Assembly (NCBI GenBank): GCA_027619545.1
Contig: JAQCFT010000013.1
Coordinates: forward strand, 1-33,535
Direction of reading: 5' to 3'
Origin: Verrucomicrobiota bacterium
GTDB taxonomy: Bacteria > Verrucomicrobiota > Verrucomicrobiia > Limisphaerales > AAA164-E04
DNA length: 33,535 bases
This document shows, piece after piece, positions 3,082 to 30,602 of the stretch. The translations under genes and the position numbers were made by a program. A model generated the notes under the pieces. The model saw only the letters and a list, made by a program, of their open reading frames with translations, was not told the DNA's origin and did not search any database. Every line of letters begins with the position of its first letter. Within the stretch, counting starts at the first letter, position 1.

Positions 3082-4038
3082 TTAGGGAGTGGTTTGCGGT
3101 GTTGCCAGTGCTTTTGAAATGGTTGCGATGTTGTGCCCGACCCAACCTTCATAGGTACCAAGGTCGAACTTCATCCCTTTATAGGATTCAATTTCTCCGG
3201 TCGTTCCCAGAGCATCAGAGAAGAGTTCACCGCCAATTTTTGTGCCCGAATCTTCGCTGATGCGTTTGATAGTGGCCGGTGAAACACTTGATTCCACGAA
3301 AACGGCCGGGACATTTCTGGACTTGATAAAATCGACGATATGGATGATGTCAGCCAAAGGCGCTTCCGCTACGGTTGAGATTCCTTGGACCCCGACCACT
3401 TGCAGACCAAAGGCGTTTCCAAAGTAGTTGAATGCGTCATGACTGGTTACCAAAACCCGTTTTTCCGGGGCAATTCCGTTGATTTGTTCCATACCCCAGC
3501 TCATCAACTTATCCAGCCTTTTGATGTAAGCATCACGGTTGGCTTGATAGGTTTGCTCGCCGGAAGGGTCATGTTTGATAAGGATAGTGGTTATGGTTTC
3601 CACGCATTCCGTCCATAATCTCGGGTCACCCCAAATATGCGGGTCCCAATGCCCTTGTATGTTCTCTGGTTTCAATAACTTGCTATGAGCGATGTTATCC
3701 GTCACAGCAAACACGGCTTTACCTTGCTTGTTTAAGCGGTCCAGAAGATCTGACATTTTTCCTTCCAGCAGCAGTCCGTTGTAGAAGACAAGTTTGGCTC
3801 TGGAAAGTTTCAAGACATCAGAAGCAGCCGGCTTGTAGAGATGAGGGTCAACACCCGGCCCCATCAAACCTTCCACAGACACACGATCACCACCAATTTG
3901 TTTGACCGTATCGGTGATCATGGTCGTGGTTGTCACGATGTTGAGTGCCGCACCATGTAAACAACTGGAATTTAGGACAAAAAAGCTCATGCAAAACAAC
4001 ATCGAACGACCAAAAACCCAACTGAAGGAAGTTATCAT
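3082..4038 (-). CDS. Metal ABC transporter substrate-binding protein (TroA/ZnuA type)
   Basis: This 318-residue secreted protein has a hydrophobic N-terminal signal (about 10-32, with a possible lipobox-like SSC). It then has the cluster A-I substrate-binding fold: VTTTTMITDTVKQIGGDRV, then GVDPHLYKP. Metal ligands can be placed at His66 (DPHLY), His134 (DPHIWGDP), His200 (TSHDAFNYF) and Asp275 (LFSDALG). His at the third position is the TroA/ZnuA pattern, whereas PsaA-type Mn proteins have Glu there, so zinc or manganese is likely. No ATPase or permease partner gene lies in the window on either side, so it is either a solitary binding protein or serves a transporter elsewhere. It converges on the kinase gene with only 19 bp between. 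A palindrome resembling a DtxR-family operator lies 44-52 bp upstream of the start. Confidence 0.88.
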   Translation of the reverse strand: MITSFSWVFGRSMLFCMSFFVLNSSCLHGAALNIVTTTTMITDTVKQIGGDRVSVEGLMGPGVDPHLYKPAASDVLKLSRAKLVFYNGLLLEGKMSDLLDRLNKQGKAVFAVTDNIAHSKLLKPENIQGHWDPHIWGDPRLWTECVETITTILIKHDPSGEQTYQANRDAYIKRLDKLMSWGMEQINGIAPEKRVLVTSHDAFNYFGNAFGLQVVGVQGISTVAEAPLADIIHIVDFIKSRNVPAVFVESSVSPATIKRISEDSGTKIGGELFSDALGTTGEIESYKGMKFDLGTYEGWVGHNIATISKALATPQTTP

Positions 4039-5605: not shown

Positions 5606-6439
5606 ATGAAGCAAATTCTAGCCGTATTATCCGTTGTTGCCGTCGTCGCCTCCTTGCAGGTGATTGGTGGTGACAAGAAGGGAGCTTGTTCCAGTTGCCC
5701 AAGCGCAAAAACCGCCGTGGGAGCCACTGCAGCAACTGAAGGTTCCGCATGTGCCGCATCCAAAACTGAAGTGGGCAGTGAAGCCAAATCCGAATGTGCA
5801 TCCGGATCCTGTGAAAAAGGCAAAACCGCCGTGGGTGAAACTGCCGCATCTGAAGGAGCCGCTTGCGACGCTTCCAAGGCCAAGGTTGGCACAGAGGCAA
5901 AATCCGATTGCGGATCCTGTGAAAAGGGTAAAACCGCTGTGGGCGAACAAGCCAAATCAGATTGTAGCTCCTGCGAATCTTCCAAGACCGCAGTTGGAGA
6001 AAAAGCCAAAGCAGAATGCAGCCAGAAAACACTGACGTTCAAGGTGGGTGGAGCAGCTTGTGAAGAGTCCTGCGGCAACTTGGTCAAGACATTGACCAGC
6101 ATCAAGGGCATCAGTACCGCTGAGTCTTGCTCTAAGAGCTCCATGACCAAAATTTCCTACGATCCTGCCACGGTGAAATCCGAACAAATCGCCGCTGCTA
6201 TCGTAAAGGCTGGATACAAAATCGAGGGTCAGCAGGTTTCCTTGCCTGTGGAAGGTATGGCTTGTGAAGCATGTTCAACCAAGGTTGGTAAAACCTTGAC
6301 CAGCTTGGAAGGTGTGATCAGTGGTTCGGCTTGTCACGAAAGCAAGAAAGCCACCGTGCTCTACGATCCTGCAAAAGTGAAAGAGCAGCAGATCGTTGCC
6401 GCCATCAATGGCGCCGGTTTCAAGGCTTCCGCTCAATAA
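5606..6439 (+). CDS. Secreted Cys-rich repeat protein with two HMA-like domains
   Basis: From ATG at 5606 the protein has 277 residues. A signal peptide (1-21, MKQILAVLSVVAVVASLQVIG) precedes a repeat region (about 26-140). Its anchor K-x-x-V-G recurs at residues 35, 53, 73, 91, 109 and 127, an 18-residue period with one 2-residue insertion, and each unit is bordered by one or two cysteines (11 Cys in all). Two HMA-like (heavy-metal-associated, ferredoxin-like) domains follow. The first (about 143-206) has C152-x3-C156 instead of the usual CxxC. The second (about 211-274) has the canonical G-M-x-C220-x2-C223. Each has a further Cys at a matching place (175 and 243). Copper or other soft-metal binding outside the cytoplasm is inferred. 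An in-frame start at 5561 exists but would bury the signal peptide. The neighbours are unrelated; a terminator follows. Confidence 0.85.
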   Translation: MKQILAVLSVVAVVASLQVIGGDKKGACSSCPSAKTAVGATAATEGSACAASKTEVGSEAKSECASGSCEKGKTAVGETAASEGAACDASKAKVGTEAKSDCGSCEKGKTAVGEQAKSDCSSCESSKTAVGEKAKAECSQKTLTFKVGGAACEESCGNLVKTLTSIKGISTAESCSKSSMTKISYDPATVKSEQIAAAIVKAGYKIEGQQVSLPVEGMACEACSTKVGKTLTSLEGVISGSACHESKKATVLYDPAKVKEQQIVAAINGAGFKASAQ

Positions 6440-6473
6440 GGCAATTTAAAATCAATTGAATCAAAATCAGAAA

Positions 6474-6501
6474 AGCGTCCTCTTGTGAGGGCGCTTTTTT
6501 T
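6474..6501. terminator. Bidirectional rho-independent terminator
   Basis: A 9-bp stem (6474-6482 with 6487-6495, one G-T wobble) and a 4-base loop are followed by a run of T to 6501 on the plus strand. On the minus strand the same stem is followed by TTTTC. It lies between the convergent Cys-rich protein gene and the YbeD-like gene, and the T run overlaps the latter's stop codon, so it can end both transcripts. Confidence 0.85.
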
Positions 6502-6772
6502 ATAGCAACATCTTTACGCCCTCAACTGATCGAATGGCTTGGTCTATTTCCAGCATTCGATCATGTGTTTCCACCATCAAAGAAACTTCAAAGCTGATGT
6601 ATTTTCCTTTTTTGGATCGATTGGCTGGTTGAAAAGCGATGTCCTCAAGGCCGATTTCAACCAAAGCCAGATTCAAGTTTTTATGAATGCCCATCAAATC
6701 CATGCAAATGACCTTAAAATGGCACTCGGCTGGGAACAACGATTCCTTTTCTTCTTTGGTCAACTCTCTCAT
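6500..6772 (-). CDS. DUF493/YbeD-like small protein
   Basis: This 90-residue protein aligns by eye along its length with the DUF493 (YbeD, UPF0250) family. It opens with FPAECHFKVICMD, has a central SKKGKYISFEVSLMVET corresponding to the SSKGNYHSVSITINA segment of YbeD, and closes with a short helix and VKMLL (VRMVL in E. coli). The family has an ACT-like fold and no firmly established activity. I chose ATG 6772 because an AGGAA Shine-Dalgarno (6780-6784) sits 7 bases upstream and because the family begins near here; the same frame is open to 6919, but the extra 49 residues look unlike the family. It is last in the minus-strand run after moaE, 168 bp downstream, and may have its own promoter. 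Confidence 0.75.
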   Translation of the reverse strand: MRELTKEEKESLFPAECHFKVICMDLMGIHKNLNLALVEIGLEDIAFQPANRSKKGKYISFEVSLMVETHDRMLEIDQAIRSVEGVKMLL

Positions 6773-6940: not shown

Positions 6941-7339
6941 TTAATCCCCAACAAACTGCGGGTGTTTCCAGATGGGCACCCGTTTTTTCATTTCGACGAT
7001 AAGCCATTCGCATGCTTGGAATGCTTCCTGTCTGTGAGGAGATGTCACTTCGACCCACAATGAGGATTCATTGACCGGGACATGGCCGATGCGGTGGATC
7101 AAACGGATGGATTCAATCGGCCATTTTTGTTCCACCTCGTCGAATATCAATTTGAACTGATGCACAGCCATTTCTTCAAAGGCCTCATATACGATGGCAT
7201 CAATTTTCCTTCCCTGTTCCCCCTCACGGACGATACCTGAAAAATAAACGACAGCGCCCATCTGATGACTCAGGGTTCGTGATGAAACCATGAGGCCCTC
7301 ATCAATGGGATCTTTGGTCAGTTCAATGGATCGTTTCAT
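6941..7339 (-). CDS. moaE: Molybdopterin synthase catalytic subunit MoaE
   Basis: MoaE is the large subunit of molybdopterin synthase. With thiocarboxylated MoaD it inserts two sulfurs into cyclic pyranopterin monophosphate to make molybdopterin, in the cytoplasm. The 132 residues carry the family landmarks: GAVVYFSGIVRE near the start, YEAFEEMA, IHRIGHVPVNESSLWVEVTSPHRQEAFQAC, and the C-terminal KKRVPIWK with the conserved catalytic lysines. Length is slightly under the usual 140-150. It lies 24 bp after moaD in the same direction, which is the standard pairing. No other molybdenum cofactor gene (moaA, moaC, mogA, moeA) is in the window. Confidence 0.93.
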   Translation of the reverse strand: MKRSIELTKDPIDEGLMVSSRTLSHQMGAVVYFSGIVREGEQGRKIDAIVYEAFEEMAVHQFKLIFDEVEQKWPIESIRLIHRIGHVPVNESSLWVEVTSPHRQEAFQACEWLIVEMKKRVPIWKHPQFVGD

Positions 7340-7363
7340 GATGACTAAAGTGATGCCCTGGAA

Positions 7364-7612
7364 TCAGCCACCTTGCACCGGAGGAAACAGGGAGATTTCT
7401 TCACCTTCAGACAGCACATGATCCGTAGCCACGTACTCCAGGCCAACCGCTACAAGCGTCGAGCGTTTCATGGATTCCAGTTTGGGAAATTTTTCGCGAA
7501 CCATTTCCATTGCTTGTTCCAAAGTGGCGCCTTCTTCCAGATCGATCCTGGTTGCCTCGCACCCGGTCAGATCCTTGAAGTAGGAGAAGAAATTGACTTT
7601 GATTTCAATCAT
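7364..7612 (-). CDS. moaD: Molybdopterin synthase sulfur carrier subunit MoaD
   Basis: This 82-residue ubiquitin-like protein starts MIEIKVNFFSYFKDLTG and ends FPPVQGG. The C-terminal Gly-Gly is the residue pair that is adenylated and converted to a thiocarboxylate for sulfur delivery to MoaE. The GEEISLFPPVQGG ending is diagnostic of MoaD. The frame is open upstream to 7738, but those residues lie within the end of the hpt gene in another frame and do not resemble MoaD. With ATG 7612 the gene overlaps the hpt stop codon by 8 bp (start 7612-7610, hpt stop 7607-7605), indicating translational coupling. Confidence 0.92.
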   Translation of the reverse strand: MIEIKVNFFSYFKDLTGCEATRIDLEEGATLEQAMEMVREKFPKLESMKRSTLVAVGLEYVATDHVLSEGEEISLFPPVQGG

Positions 7613-8213
7613 TTGCTGTATGGGGTGCATGAGCATCGAGCACGCCGATGAATGGAAGTTGGCGGAATTGCAAGGCAAAGTCCAGTCCGTAACCGACGAC
7701 AAATTGATCAGGAATGAAAAAACCGACGAAATCCGCATTAACCGAATGTTCGGAGGGTTGCTGACGTTCTTTTCGCAATAAAACGCAGGTCCGAAGTGAC
7801 GCGGGTTGGCTCAGGTGCAGCTTGTCGGTTACCTTGCGGAGTGTTTGGCCCGTATCCAGAATGTCGTCGATCACCAGGACATGCTTTTCTTTCAAATCGA
7901 TTTGCATCGGATGGGTCCATGAAAGTTCACCGGATGCGACATTTTTGCCATAACTGGAAACTCCCATGAAATCGAGCTCGATAGAAAAACGCCAATGGCG
8001 TACCAGGTCCGCAGTAAAGAGAAATGCACCTGACAGCAGACTCAATACCACTACCGGTTTGTCGTCAGGCATGCTTCGATCGATTTCATCCGCCAGTTCG
8101 CCCACTCGTTTTTGGATCAATTCTGAAGAAATCATCATCCCCTTCAGCATATCCGAATTCCAGGGTGTCGGAACGGGTTCAAGACCCTTCAGAGTCAGAT
8201 CAACGGGTTTCAT
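7605..8213 (-). CDS. hpt: Hypoxanthine phosphoribosyltransferase
   Basis: This 202-residue type I phosphoribosyltransferase converts hypoxanthine (or guanine) and PRPP to the nucleotide in purine salvage. The PRPP-binding motif VLVIDDILDTGQTL lies near residues 113-126. Earlier VLSLLSGAFLFTADLVR is the PPi-loop region, and LDFMGVSSYG is the flexible-loop Ser-Tyr pair. The late FFIPDQFVVGYGLDF stacks on the base in HPRT. All are typical of bacterial Hpt, whose usual length is about 180, so the first 20-25 residues may be an N-terminal extension or the start may be at an internal Met (22, 26 or 27). It lies 15 bp after the helicase gene and overlaps moaD, giving a purine-salvage/molybdopterin run that looks co-transcribed but not functionally unified. 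Confidence 0.93.
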   Translation of the reverse strand: MKPVDLTLKGLEPVPTPWNSDMLKGMMISSELIQKRVGELADEIDRSMPDDKPVVVLSLLSGAFLFTADLVRHWRFSIELDFMGVSSYGKNVASGELSWTHPMQIDLKEKHVLVIDDILDTGQTLRKVTDKLHLSQPASLRTCVLLRKERQQPSEHSVNADFVGFFIPDQFVVGYGLDFALQFRQLPFIGVLDAHAPHTAND

Positions 8214-10321: not shown

Positions 10322-13300
10322 TCAGGCCCCAAAGACGTTCAGCGGTTGAACTCCGATGGTTCCATTCAGGAAATCCAGGTAATCCGGTTTGGCGACATCG
10401 GCTCGATTGGCTTTGGCCTCCTCCAGTCGTTCGGTCACCTGAAGACGTTGAGCTTCCTCTTTGTAGCTGATCTTTGCCAAAAACGTCTTGAGATAATCGA
10501 TATGCCGATCCCACAGAGCGATTTCCAGTTTTTGTTTGGTTTTCAGTCTTTCAATGTACCAATCACTCTTCATGAGATGGTCGCGAGTGAACAACTTCCG
10601 AATTTCGGGATCATTCAATGTTTTTCCTTCGTAGGATCCTTCCACCATGATGGTCAACAAGGCTTTCAAAGGAGGGCAGGCCGCGTCGATGCTTCTGTCA
10701 TCAATATAGAGCAGCCCCACCCGCTTCTGCGTGGCTTCGATATTGTCCAAACCGTCCACAAAAGTCTCCACACCCTGCAACTCAGGTTGCAGCATTTCTT
10801 TAGTGAATACCTTATGAGGGTGATTGAAGACGCGTCCGAAAAAGTCGCGGACAAATTTCATGTTGATGCGATATCCCAGTCGGCTGAAGAACAGGGTTCT
10901 TCCTTCGTGTTCGACATCCTCGCATTTTTCCAGATAGCCATTCTCGATCAGATAGGATGCGTGACGTTCCTCATCCTTCATTCGACACCACACTTCCGGG
11001 ATCAACATGCTGATATCATGTGCCACTTCTACGTTGGGGCCGATATAACCGGCAGCCGTAACAAAACCGTCGTGTCCGGTGAGGATCATGGACACCAGGG
11101 CGTTGTTCAAATCAATGATCGGCGGCAAGGCATTGAACGGTCCCTTGGTCAGTGCGCCTTCCGAACCCGCTCCCGTGGTGGAAGGGGATTTTCCGGTCAT
11201 GCTGCAGATGTACTCAATGAAAAGTTCCGGCAGATCCATGTAGTGGATGGGATTATAGACTGCCAACGGGCGGATGCCTGCATTGGCGTCGGCAGGGTTG
11301 TTGCGTCGGCCGGGAACCACCGCGTCCACCACTGAATACAGGGGATGGGTCCTATCCAGCTTTCGATGAAGTCGCATGGACATTTCTTCAAGATGGCAGG
11401 CGCGTTCGTTGATGAGGTCGGGACGGATTTCCAAATACCTGGGGTTTTTTGTAGGCTTGCCATTTACCATTCTGGGATGGGCGCTGCTCACAAAGTAGGT
11501 GGGCTTTTCGGATGCCTGTGCGCTTTTCACCAGATCCTGCATGGGTTGGGTGTATTGGTAGAACCCGATGGCGTCCTCGATGATGGCATCTGCATCTTCT
11601 TTTTTCAACGGTTCGAAGTTGGAAATAAAATTGCCCGTTTGTGCCAGATCCGCCTCTGCATGTTTGTCGTAACCCCGGATGATGGCGTCATCCGGTCTTT
11701 GGAAGAATCGGTATTCACAGTTTTTGATAAACTTGACCGAGCGATCGTGATGATCAGGCATCACTCCTTCCAGATTTTTGTGGGAGACGACCACGCTTGC
11801 GGTGATGTCATCTTCCAGCGATTGTTTGGCGGCCGGATGGAAATCTTTTCGAAGGCCGAACGTTCTCCAAAGTCCGTTGTCTTGAAAACCGACACGCAGG
11901 TAATTGGTGACCAGTTTACGGTTGTCACACTTCAGTTCGTTTCCGGGTTTACCATTGATGAGGTCGACCGTGAAATGTTCACGCCAGCCAGCTCCCCATT
12001 CGGGCCTGTAATAACGCTTCAGAACGAAGACAAGTTCTTTGACATATTGGGGAATGGACTCGAGCCAAGCGTTGTACTCGTCCGTATAGTCCTTGGCGGC
12101 CGGCGTCAACAATTTGATGACCGATCCCAGGGATCTTTCAGGGCTCAGAATGCCCCTTTGATCCTTCCGCGAACTGTCGCGGAAACGGTCGGAATAATCT
12201 TTTGCCAGGATTTCATCGACTTTTTCCAGATCTGGATGGATGTCAGCCACGATGACGGGGCCCTGAATGATGGCATCCGTGATGGGTTTGGATATTTCGG
12301 ATTTGCCCCCACCTGAAACCGTGCATGGTTTGTGGCAAAGCAGGCCTTCCGCGACGGTACCCACCAGTCGCCAGGAGCGGTTGCCGGGAGGTTTTTCCAT
12401 TTGAACCTTGTAACCTGAAGGGCGCACATAAGTTTTACCCACCAGAAGGCTTATGGATTGTTCACCTTCGTCATTCGTCCATGTAACCTTCTGTTGATGC
12501 AGGTCGAAGTGAACGTTTTCGGCTACATAGATGATGTCCGGAAACCGTTTATCCACCGCATAACCCTCCGGTTTGGCATCCATGACATCCGCGAATCTTT
12601 CCACCATGTCCTTGAAGCTGTGACCGCGTCGTTTGACGTGCAGGTGTCCGCTGAATTCCTCGCCCAGATCGTAGCTGGGATATACCATGGCGCCTCCTGC
12701 ATGCTCTTCTTCCGCCAAGCCGTACAAGTTTGCCGAATAACTGATCTGGGTTTTTACTTCCTTTTTGCAATAGCCGAAATAGTTGTCGGCAATGATGGTG
12801 ACCATCACCCCTTTTTCATCGCGGGCGCAAAGTTTGAAAGCCGTGCCGCCGTTGTAGCGTTCATCCGGATCTTTCCAGCACATGCCTTGTTCACGTTGTT
12901 TTTCGGTGGCGTCGTCATAGTGAGGGAGCCCGGCGTCTTTCTTTTTGACCCGTGTCAGATGCGGTGCAAGGATCACGCAACCGGTGTGCCCGGTCCAGTG
13001 GTGCACATCCAATCCGGCATCATTTTCGGGTAGCTGAGGATCGCCGGCGTTGCCAAAAATACTTTCCACAAAGTCCAGATTGCTGACCAGATTTCCGGGG
13101 GCGAAAAATCGAATTTCACTGCGTTTCTCCTTGATGACCCCAGGCACCTCCGGCACGACCAGGGGACGCAGTAGTAAAGAAACAAAACATTCGGCTTTTG
13201 TTTCCAAATTGCTCGTGAACGGCAGTTGCATCAGGGAGGAAGGCGGTTGAAGGGCAAAACCGAGCATTCGGTTGAATGTGATCAATGGAACCGCGATCTT

Positions 13301-13780
13301 GTCTGCGGGTACGGGCAAACCGGCATCCGCTATATGGAACACGCCTTTTGTCGTGCGCCGATCATTGACCGGATTGTGTAATACCCCCTGTCGGATGCGG
13401 TAGGATTGTATGATGTCCGAATCGAAACGATCCTCATTCACCGGAAGGGACAAGGTGCGTGCAACGCCATGCCTGTCCAGAACGAATGATTTTGAAGGTA
13501 ATCGGGGGACATCGCCCGTTTCATAAAGGAATTCATTCAACCATTGCTGAATGCGCCAGTCGGCCGGACAAAGGTAGTTTGAAAGCAGGCGCTCCTGTTC
13601 GCGGTGGTTGGCAATGAGCGATTCGGCAACATCATGGAATGGGGAATCACTTTTCGCAGGCACCGTGGAACAGCCCATGGCGGCCAATTTCAAATTGATG
13701 TAATCAACCATGTAGTCGTCGGGATACACCTCGTTGGATGCATGTAGTCCGATCGCTTTTTGTAAATTAATGGAACTCAT
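10322..13780 (-). CDS. Probable PPi-dependent phosphoenolpyruvate carboxykinase (1152 aa)
   Basis: A single uninterrupted 1152-residue cytoplasmic-looking protein with no signal peptide or membrane segment. I recognise it as most like the large PPi-type PEP carboxykinases characterised in Entamoeba histolytica and Propionibacterium freudenreichii. These are also about 1100-1150 residues, interconvert oxaloacetate plus PPi and PEP plus CO2 plus phosphate, and barely resemble the ATP or GTP enzymes. Supporting features are a Gly-rich phosphate-loop-like SGGGKSEISKP (about 487-498), a highly patterned block TGKSPSTTGAGSEGALTKG (about 859-877) and an N-terminal MVDYINLKLAAMGC. The match rests on memory of family features, not a search. 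Alternatively it is an uncharacterised PEPCK-related family. It heads the minus-strand run, is divergent from the CPBP gene, and has a 7-bp inverted repeat upstream. Confidence 0.58.
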   Translation of the reverse strand: MSSINLQKAIGLHASNEVYPDDYMVDYINLKLAAMGCSTVPAKSDSPFHDVAESLIANHREQERLLSNYLCPADWRIQQWLNEFLYETGDVPRLPSKSFVLDRHGVARTLSLPVNEDRFDSDIIQSYRIRQGVLHNPVNDRRTTKGVFHIADAGLPVPADKIAVPLITFNRMLGFALQPPSSLMQLPFTSNLETKAECFVSLLLRPLVVPEVPGVIKEKRSEIRFFAPGNLVSNLDFVESIFGNAGDPQLPENDAGLDVHHWTGHTGCVILAPHLTRVKKKDAGLPHYDDATEKQREQGMCWKDPDERYNGGTAFKLCARDEKGVMVTIIADNYFGYCKKEVKTQISYSANLYGLAEEEHAGGAMVYPSYDLGEEFSGHLHVKRRGHSFKDMVERFADVMDAKPEGYAVDKRFPDIIYVAENVHFDLHQQKVTWTNDEGEQSISLLVGKTYVRPSGYKVQMEKPPGNRSWRLVGTVAEGLLCHKPCTVSGGGKSEISKPITDAIIQGPVIVADIHPDLEKVDEILAKDYSDRFRDSSRKDQRGILSPERSLGSVIKLLTPAAKDYTDEYNAWLESIPQYVKELVFVLKRYYRPEWGAGWREHFTVDLINGKPGNELKCDNRKLVTNYLRVGFQDNGLWRTFGLRKDFHPAAKQSLEDDITASVVVSHKNLEGVMPDHHDRSVKFIKNCEYRFFQRPDDAIIRGYDKHAEADLAQTGNFISNFEPLKKEDADAIIEDAIGFYQYTQPMQDLVKSAQASEKPTYFVSSAHPRMVNGKPTKNPRYLEIRPDLINERACHLEEMSMRLHRKLDRTHPLYSVVDAVVPGRRNNPADANAGIRPLAVYNPIHYMDLPELFIEYICSMTGKSPSTTGAGSEGALTKGPFNALPPIIDLNNALVSMILTGHDGFVTAAGYIGPNVEVAHDISMLIPEVWCRMKDEERHASYLIENGYLEKCEDVEHEGRTLFFSRLGYRINMKFVRDFFGRVFNHPHKVFTKEMLQPELQGVETFVDGLDNIEATQKRVGLLYIDDRSIDAACPPLKALLTIMVEGSYEGKTLNDPEIRKLFTRDHLMKSDWYIERLKTKQKLEIALWDRHIDYLKTFLAKISYKEEAQRLQVTERLEEAKANRADVAKPDYLDFLNGTIGVQPLNVFGA

Positions 13781-29540: not shown

Positions 29541-30602
29541 TTACCGTTGCGGACGACTTGGGCGGGAACCTTCGAAGGGCCTTCTGCCACCACGGTTGGA
29601 CTGGGTGGAGGCATCGGGGCGACCTGCACCTTCTGGACGACCACCGCGGAATCCTGATTGAGGTCTTCCAGGGCGTTGGGATCGATCACTCATGGCTGAA
29701 AGTTCATCTTCTTCCAACAGACCGTTTTCATTGATGTCGAGACGTTGCAAACGGGTATACATACCAGCGAGACGTTTCACGACATTTTCGGGGGATGGAT
29801 TGACACCCTCAGGTGCTGTTGGCAGGCCTTCCGGTTTGGAGATGGTTCCGTCTTTGATGGCTTCCACCAGGGTGGCTTGCTCGTCAGCGCTCAATGTGCC
29901 GTTCTGGTCCGCATCCGCTGCGGAAAGAATGGCAAATGCTGCCGGAAGGTTTTCAGCAAAGGCTGGAACTTCGTCAGGTCGTTGCCCGCGCCCGGCTCCT
30001 TGGGGTGGACCGAATGGTCGACCACCTTGGGCGCCGCCACGTTTGCCTTGGCCACCGGAGGGCATTTCAATTTCACCGGACATCGCTGCTGCGCGAAATG
30101 CTCCAAGTTCGTCTCTGGTAAGTTCGCCGTCGTTGTTGGCATCAAAGGGGGCGATAGTTCCGTATAAACCTGCCATACGTTGGGTGATGGCTTCGGCGGG
30201 TACTTCGACTCCTTCGGGTGGCGTGGGCAACCATTCGGGTTTGGTCAGCGTGCCGTCCAGCATGGCGCTGAGGAGGACGGCCTGTTCATCGGCATCCAAT
30301 TGATTGTCTCCATTGACGTCTGCTGCTTCCAATACACCATAGATTTCAGGTAGTGCTTGAACAAACGCCGGAGGTCCACCCGCAGGACGACCATTGGATG
30401 GCCTGCCCGAAATGCCTGCCGGAGGACCGCCTGCAGGGCGTCCGGAGGCCTGTCGGTCGGTGACAAATGAGGGTGGTCCGCCAGCTGGGCGACCTTGTTG
30501 TGCAATGGTGCTGGTGAGCGTCCAGGCTCCGGCGCCCGTGAGCAGGGCTAACAATGTGTATGATGTTTTTTTCATGGCTTTGCTTTGTTTGAATGTTTTC
30601 AT
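29541..30602 (-). CDS. Secreted EF-hand protein with internal duplication
   Basis: This 353-residue protein has an N-terminal signal region (about 1-35; a second start at 30575 would give the tighter MKKTSYTLLALL signal). Then comes a low-complexity part with GRPAGGPP repeated three times (about 38-79). Four EF-hand calcium loops follow, starting at Asp95 (DVNGDNQLDADE), Asp154 (DANNDGELTRDE), Asp230 (DADQNGTLSADE) and Asp289 (DINENGLLEEDE). The halves 84-170 and 219-300 are clear duplicates (each LP...AAD...DEQA...GT..KPE.LPT.PEGV...). The C-terminal 50 residues are Arg/Gly/Pro-rich. Periplasmic or extracellular calcium binding is likely. It precedes the histidine kinase gene in the same direction, with a hairpin in the 145 bp between. 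Arg/Gly-rich regions hint at binding to nucleic acid, polysaccharide or surfaces, but nothing specific shows. Confidence 0.82.
   Translation of the reverse strand: MKTFKQSKAMKKTSYTLLALLTGAGAWTLTSTIAQQGRPAGGPPSFVTDRQASGRPAGGPPAGISGRPSNGRPAGGPPAFVQALPEIYGVLEAADVNGDNQLDADEQAVLLSAMLDGTLTKPEWLPTPPEGVEVPAEAITQRMAGLYGTIAPFDANNDGELTRDELGAFRAAAMSGEIEMPSGGQGKRGGAQGGRPFGPPQGAGRGQRPDEVPAFAENLPAAFAILSAADADQNGTLSADEQATLVEAIKDGTISKPEGLPTAPEGVNPSPENVVKRLAGMYTRLQRLDINENGLLEEDELSAMSDRSQRPGRPQSGFRGGRPEGAGRPDASTQSNRGGRRPFEGSRPSRPQR

Follow-up and report, generated by a model that had tools for sequence, protein, structure and literature searches.

Several described systems resemble parts of the protein analyzed here. 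MerP, an exported HMA protein, is made up of one domain of about 72 residues and is encoded in the mer operon. CopZ and Atx1 combine the HMA fold with a CxxC motif, CopZ being a cytoplasmic single-domain protein with no tail. Among the P1B-type ATPases, CopA of B. subtilis carries an N-terminal pair of HMA domains. The profile NF041115 describes a metal-binding (seleno)protein UxxU by a single-domain model of 74 residues. Finally, Csp1 is an exported multi-Cys copper store (PMC7558416). It folds into a four-helix bundle lined with Cys and carries a Tat signal.

In the following, "the window" denotes the whole analyzed stretch of DNA, 33,535 nucleotides from a Verrucomicrobiota bacterium. At 5606..6439 (+) it contains an uninterrupted frame of 277 codons, encoding a putatively secreted tandem-HMA protein of 277 aa with homologues across the order. 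From N- to C-terminus, the window protein and its relatives in 22 genomes are composed of a signal peptide, a Cys-rich stretch and two HMA domains, HMA1 and HMA2. The arrangement is uncommon, yet assembled from known parts. The original prediction knew of no described family of this kind, and we likewise found none in the profile libraries and the open-access literature searched. The signal peptide comprises residues 1-22 (5606..5671, +; cleavage site approximate), with K2 preceding a hydrophobic stretch at residues 4-15. According to a crude hydropathy test (not SignalP), such an N-terminus is also present in 20 of 20 relatives checked, which agrees with the location outside the cytoplasm that had been claimed; the same test revealed no strongly hydrophobic segment beyond the signal peptide in the 277-aa protein. 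A P1B-type ATPase was considered as well and rejected, given the length of the protein, the match to HMA alone and the lack of a hydrophobic stretch past the signal peptide.

Relatives were sought by searching the core alignment against 320 genomes of the window's order, 25 of which matched. Members with the full layout are found in 22 genomes, belonging to 12 of the 118 genera of the order. Three weaker matches, in G048, G108 and G142, belong to HMA proteins of other kinds, including one ATPase, and were not accepted as members. A wider, partial sample comprised 388 genomes of the phylum, 236 of the class and 246 of the Planctomycetota. Within these partial samples no clear member was found outside the order; ATPases, long frames and other HMA proteins were found instead, with frame length as the sole criterion for the six hits in Planctomycetota. 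One class-level protein from outside the order (L057) has a signal peptide, a region rich in Cys and a pair of HMA domains but lacks the Cys that ends strand beta-2 (see below); the layout may have arisen there in parallel. Plasmid records gave partial HMA matches only, and most among those listed are annotated as P-type ATPases. In the core tree, the three families with several members (f1, f14 and f16) are separate, with moderate deep support. As far as the aligned cores can tell, this fits vertical descent.

The two HMA domains map to residues 140-208 (6023..6229, +) and 209-274 (6230..6427, +). PF00403 matches the window protein twice (E 4.9e-14, 52.9 bits against a gathering cut-off of 24.8), no other Pfam domain is matched, and residues 141-274 are modeled by AlphaFold2 with a pLDDT of 91-97 in the order beta-alpha-beta-beta-alpha-beta. 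In this model one continuous strand, residues 205-216, joins HMA1 to HMA2. Foldseek retrieves MerP (1osd, TM 0.92 to the target, 1.1 A), CopZ (6ff2, TM 0.93) and the CopA tandem (2rml, E 2.5e-11), and in the sequence alignment against 2rml both domains align without gaps and with the same short spacing. The two ferredoxin-like heavy-metal domains of the original prediction are therefore real, and the homologues, to which it had looked for a possible refutation, match the HMA profile in 22 of 22 members.

The putative metal sites of the two domains behave differently across the family. HMA2 carries C220-x2-C223, and its CxxC is kept in 22 of 22 members. HMA1 carries C152-x3-C156 in the window protein, while its site reads CxxC in 7/22 members and CxxxC in 10/22 (the window's family and two others), the remainder having one Cys or none. 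Both motifs had thus been read correctly, including the altered one in HMA1. The special meaning attached to the latter is weakened, and the emphasis on it was misplaced, because HMA1 takes all these forms: judging by the alignment, the site drifts, and CxxxC is one form among several.

By the same alignment, the best-conserved feature is one that had been overlooked, a Cys at the end of strand beta-2. C175 of HMA1 (6128..6130, +) is invariant (22/22). Its counterpart in HMA2, C243, is followed by H244 as first turn residue (6332..6337, +), with the Cys in 21 and the His in 20 of the 22 members. Both C175 and C243 are the final residue of beta-2 in the AlphaFold2 model. Not one of 18 other HMA domains from the same searches has a Cys at this place (Fisher p 1.7e-10, the rows not being independent); the single known exception, judged by sequence alignment, is the first domain of a solved P-type Cu(+) transporter, 7si3. 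Since C175 is retained even where HMA1 has no CxxC (L041, L043, L044 and L027), its role appears to be independent of that motif. Three of these HMA1 domains (L041, L043 and L027) have a Cys where helix 2 begins (KVCxxKIMA), which may compensate for the missing motif.

In the ferredoxin-like fold, the end of beta-2 lies at the end of the sheet that bears the CxxC loop. From the HMA register we presume that H244 occupies the place of the usual core leucine and that C243 faces the opposite side, on what we take to be an edge strand. On the outer face of such a strand, C243 could lie beyond the distance at which it might bind one metal together with C220/C223. An edge strand, which would hold C175 as well as C243, is also a place suited to dimer contacts. 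As an alternative, the protein might have a redox or structural role: disulfides of the tail and beta-2 Cys, formed within or between molecules, would cross-link it into dimers or with the envelope, the HMA fold being reused mainly as a scaffold. The persistence of C175 in the absence of an HMA1 CxxC is the strongest point for this explanation, and the predicted location outside the cytoplasm agrees with it. The unbroken conservation of CxxC in HMA2, however, is what one expects of a metal site, and the number of Cys in the tail, which ranges from 0 to 31 among members and is odd in many of them, fits poorly to a fixed pairing. We consider a redox or structural role rather unlikely.

Between the signal peptide and HMA1 lies the Cys repeat array, residues 28-138 (5687..6019, +), which is composed of six 18-residue units with 11 Cys. 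The units start at C31, C49, C69, C87, C105 and C123, such that every unit opens with a Cys, and a second Cys is present in four of the six. K-x-x-V-G anchors are located at residues 35, 53, 73, 91, 109 and 127, following an 18-residue period with a single shift of two residues. The lag-18 self-identity amounts to 37 of 99 positions, a value that none of 2000 composition-preserving shuffles reached. Anchor positions, period, insertion and bordering cysteines all are exactly as first described. On the DNA level the period is 108 bp, i.e., two units. Units 1 and 3 are of one type (...AATEGSA and ...AASEGAA), units 2 and 4-6 of another (...EAKSEC-like). Pooled differences between units are pS 0.68 and pN 0.34, with synonymous sites near saturation and pN/pS at 0.5; with 68% synonymous against 34% non-synonymous difference, the units seem to be old and held by selection rather than fresh copies. 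AlphaFold2 models the array with a pLDDT below 50, without secondary structure and with no helices. It is therefore predicted to be disordered, consistent with the flexible part that had been proposed.

The number of units is not conserved. Within the window's family, six copies in the window protein compare with two in G002 and G003, one in G005 and G007 (Pedosphaera sp. ARS72), and none in G006, G009 and G010; G001 was left uncounted, as its contig stops within the array. With zero to six units in one family, and a different tail in another, the 18-residue unit is not kept throughout the homologues, and the six-fold array has to be given up as a defining trait. On present alignments the HMA pair is the fixed part of the protein, and the tail varies.

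Between families the tail sequence is wholly different. In one other family, G023 (L027:8480-10054, −) encodes a protein of 525 aa with a tail of 367 residues, in which 31 Cys are arranged in 12-residue-type KADCAKTEATSA-like units. Because its neighbours in the tree carry 4-5 Cys, this tail appears to be a separate expansion. In the AlphaFold2 model of this protein, too, the tail is disordered and both HMA domains are well folded; HMA1 has no CxxC and the beta-2 Cys is kept in sequence. Units in the tail of G113 are CDKEKAKAE-like. Throughout, the Cys count tracks tail length (r 0.98; 0.91 when G023, the longest, is omitted), and tails of 10 to 367 residues contain approximately 10% Cys, with the exception of L046, whose tail is Cys-free.

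Such turnover raises the question whether the tail is just a spacer, neutral and prone to slippage, with the HMA pair alone being functional. Copy numbers of 6, 2, 1 and 0 in a single family, tails without any resemblance between families and the Cys-free tail of L046 all speak for it. They are countered by the ratio pN/pS between near-saturated units, by the Cys in every unit, and by the constant share of Cys in all tails but one, those that expanded independently included. A neutral tail is, in our judgment, distinctly unlikely.

The genomic surroundings reveal little about function. The HMA gene is alone on its strand and is followed by an intrinsic-terminator-like hairpin with a T run (6473..6502, +), read directly from the sequence, which suggests a single-gene transcript. 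The genes diverging from the HMA gene encode a PQQ propeller and a ZnuA/AztC-like binding protein (3082-4038, −), alongside which no ABC permease or ATPase gene was recognised. Across families no neighbour is conserved, so none that would name a metal, and none of the Pfam-scanned neighbours was recognised as a mer gene (MerT, MerA, MerR). The PQQ propeller was rejected as a partner: near distant members it occurs only as paralogues of 23-31% identity, and the genome holds 49 PQQ_2 matches, several per gene, so that such a neighbour is uninformative. Besides the window gene, the search for HMA in the genome gave two long frames, C497 (770 aa) and C259 (432 aa), the former (L090) being an HMA-bearing ATPase frame with a DKTGT motif.

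By analogy with periplasmic zinc chaperones, the protein could instead hand over Zn or Mn to the ZnuA/AztC-like neighbour. In two genera, g1 and g2, the genes for the ZnuA-like protein, the PQQ propeller and the HMA protein are arranged alike, with divergent transcription from a shared intergenic region. Against such a partnership, this order is absent from g3 and from other families, the genes lie on opposite strands, the shared intergenic region shows no clear conserved operator motif, and the propeller adds no weight for the reason just given. Moreover, soft-thiol sites prefer Cu(I) or Hg to Mn. We regard this explanation as very unlikely.

Three further loci of the window may be recorded. 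A compact block of MoaE, MoaD-like and phosphoribosyltransferase-like genes (6941-8213, −) lies beside a DUF493 gene and is kept in relatives. A protein of 1152 aa (10322-13780, −) has counterparts of approximately 80% identity in relatives within the genus and of 78% in g2, and at the thresholds applied neither Pfam nor NCBIfam gave a match. An EF-hand protein (29541-30602, −) has GRPAGGPP-type low-complexity repeats flanking its EF hands.

Taken as a whole, we give about an even chance to an exported, soluble buffer and hand-over protein for a soft metal, most likely Cu(I), in the cell envelope. HMA2 would be the conserved metal site, formed by C220/C223 with C243 and H244 as possible extra ligands. 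HMA1 would act as a helper, its own CxxC site being subject to drift and C175 always being kept. The disordered N-terminal tail would supply thiols, about one per ten residues, and its length would be tuned by duplication and loss of units, giving a lineage-specific sink capacity. Tail and HMA2 would bind metal by their thiolates, presumably kept reduced outside the cytoplasm, and metal would pass between the tail and the HMA pair. Copper is suggested as the likely metal because of the kinship to CopZ, CopA and MerP. Against a metal buffer we count the Cys-free tail of L046, the presumed position of C243, and the finding that no conserved neighbour names a metal, the synteny with the ZnuA-like gene being confined to two genera; furthermore, oxidation outside the cytoplasm could turn the thiols into disulfides.

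How does such a protein compare with the described systems? With MerP it shares export and the close structural match, but it has two domains, a Cys-rich tail and the beta-2 Cys, and with 39.5 bits it does not reach the cut-off of TIGR02052 (92.55). From CopZ it differs in all the respects named at the outset, and the CopZ cut-offs of NF033794 and NF033795 are missed (66.7 vs 95 and 62.1 vs 91 bits). It resembles the CopA pair, yet in contrast to P1B ATPases it is predicted to be exported, has no membrane or ATPase part, shows CxxxC in HMA1 and carries an extra Cys in both domains. NF041115 gives the top NCBIfam score and matches 22 of 22 members; still, 84.7 bits are below its cut-off of 95, and the window protein has ordinary Cys and no Sec. 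Membership in Csp1 was rejected, as only HMA is found in Pfam and the tail is predicted without helices; its Cys-rich part is predicted to be disordered and is fused to HMA domains. With 11 Cys and predicted disorder, the tail is reminiscent of a metallothionein-like thiol sink, in which Cys thiolates would hold several metal ions. By the tests made, the protein is not MerP, CopZ, NF041115 or Csp1. A more specific view, which seems doubtful to us but worth stating, is that of a three-ligand HMA pair (CxxC plus the Cys/His of beta-2) that loads from or drains into a capacity-tuned disordered thiol tail. Such an exported union of a metallothionein-like tail and a metallochaperone would have evolved several times with unrelated repeats within one verrucomicrobial order, in a bacterial group whose metal handling in the envelope is little studied. 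If true, related proteins would present one and the same metal-binding module with anything from 0 to 31 Cys in the tail, a natural series in which capacity and transfer are measurable against tail length. The systems known so far would then be joined by an exported thiol store whose tail is disordered, and by an HMA site in which an extra Cys is conserved.
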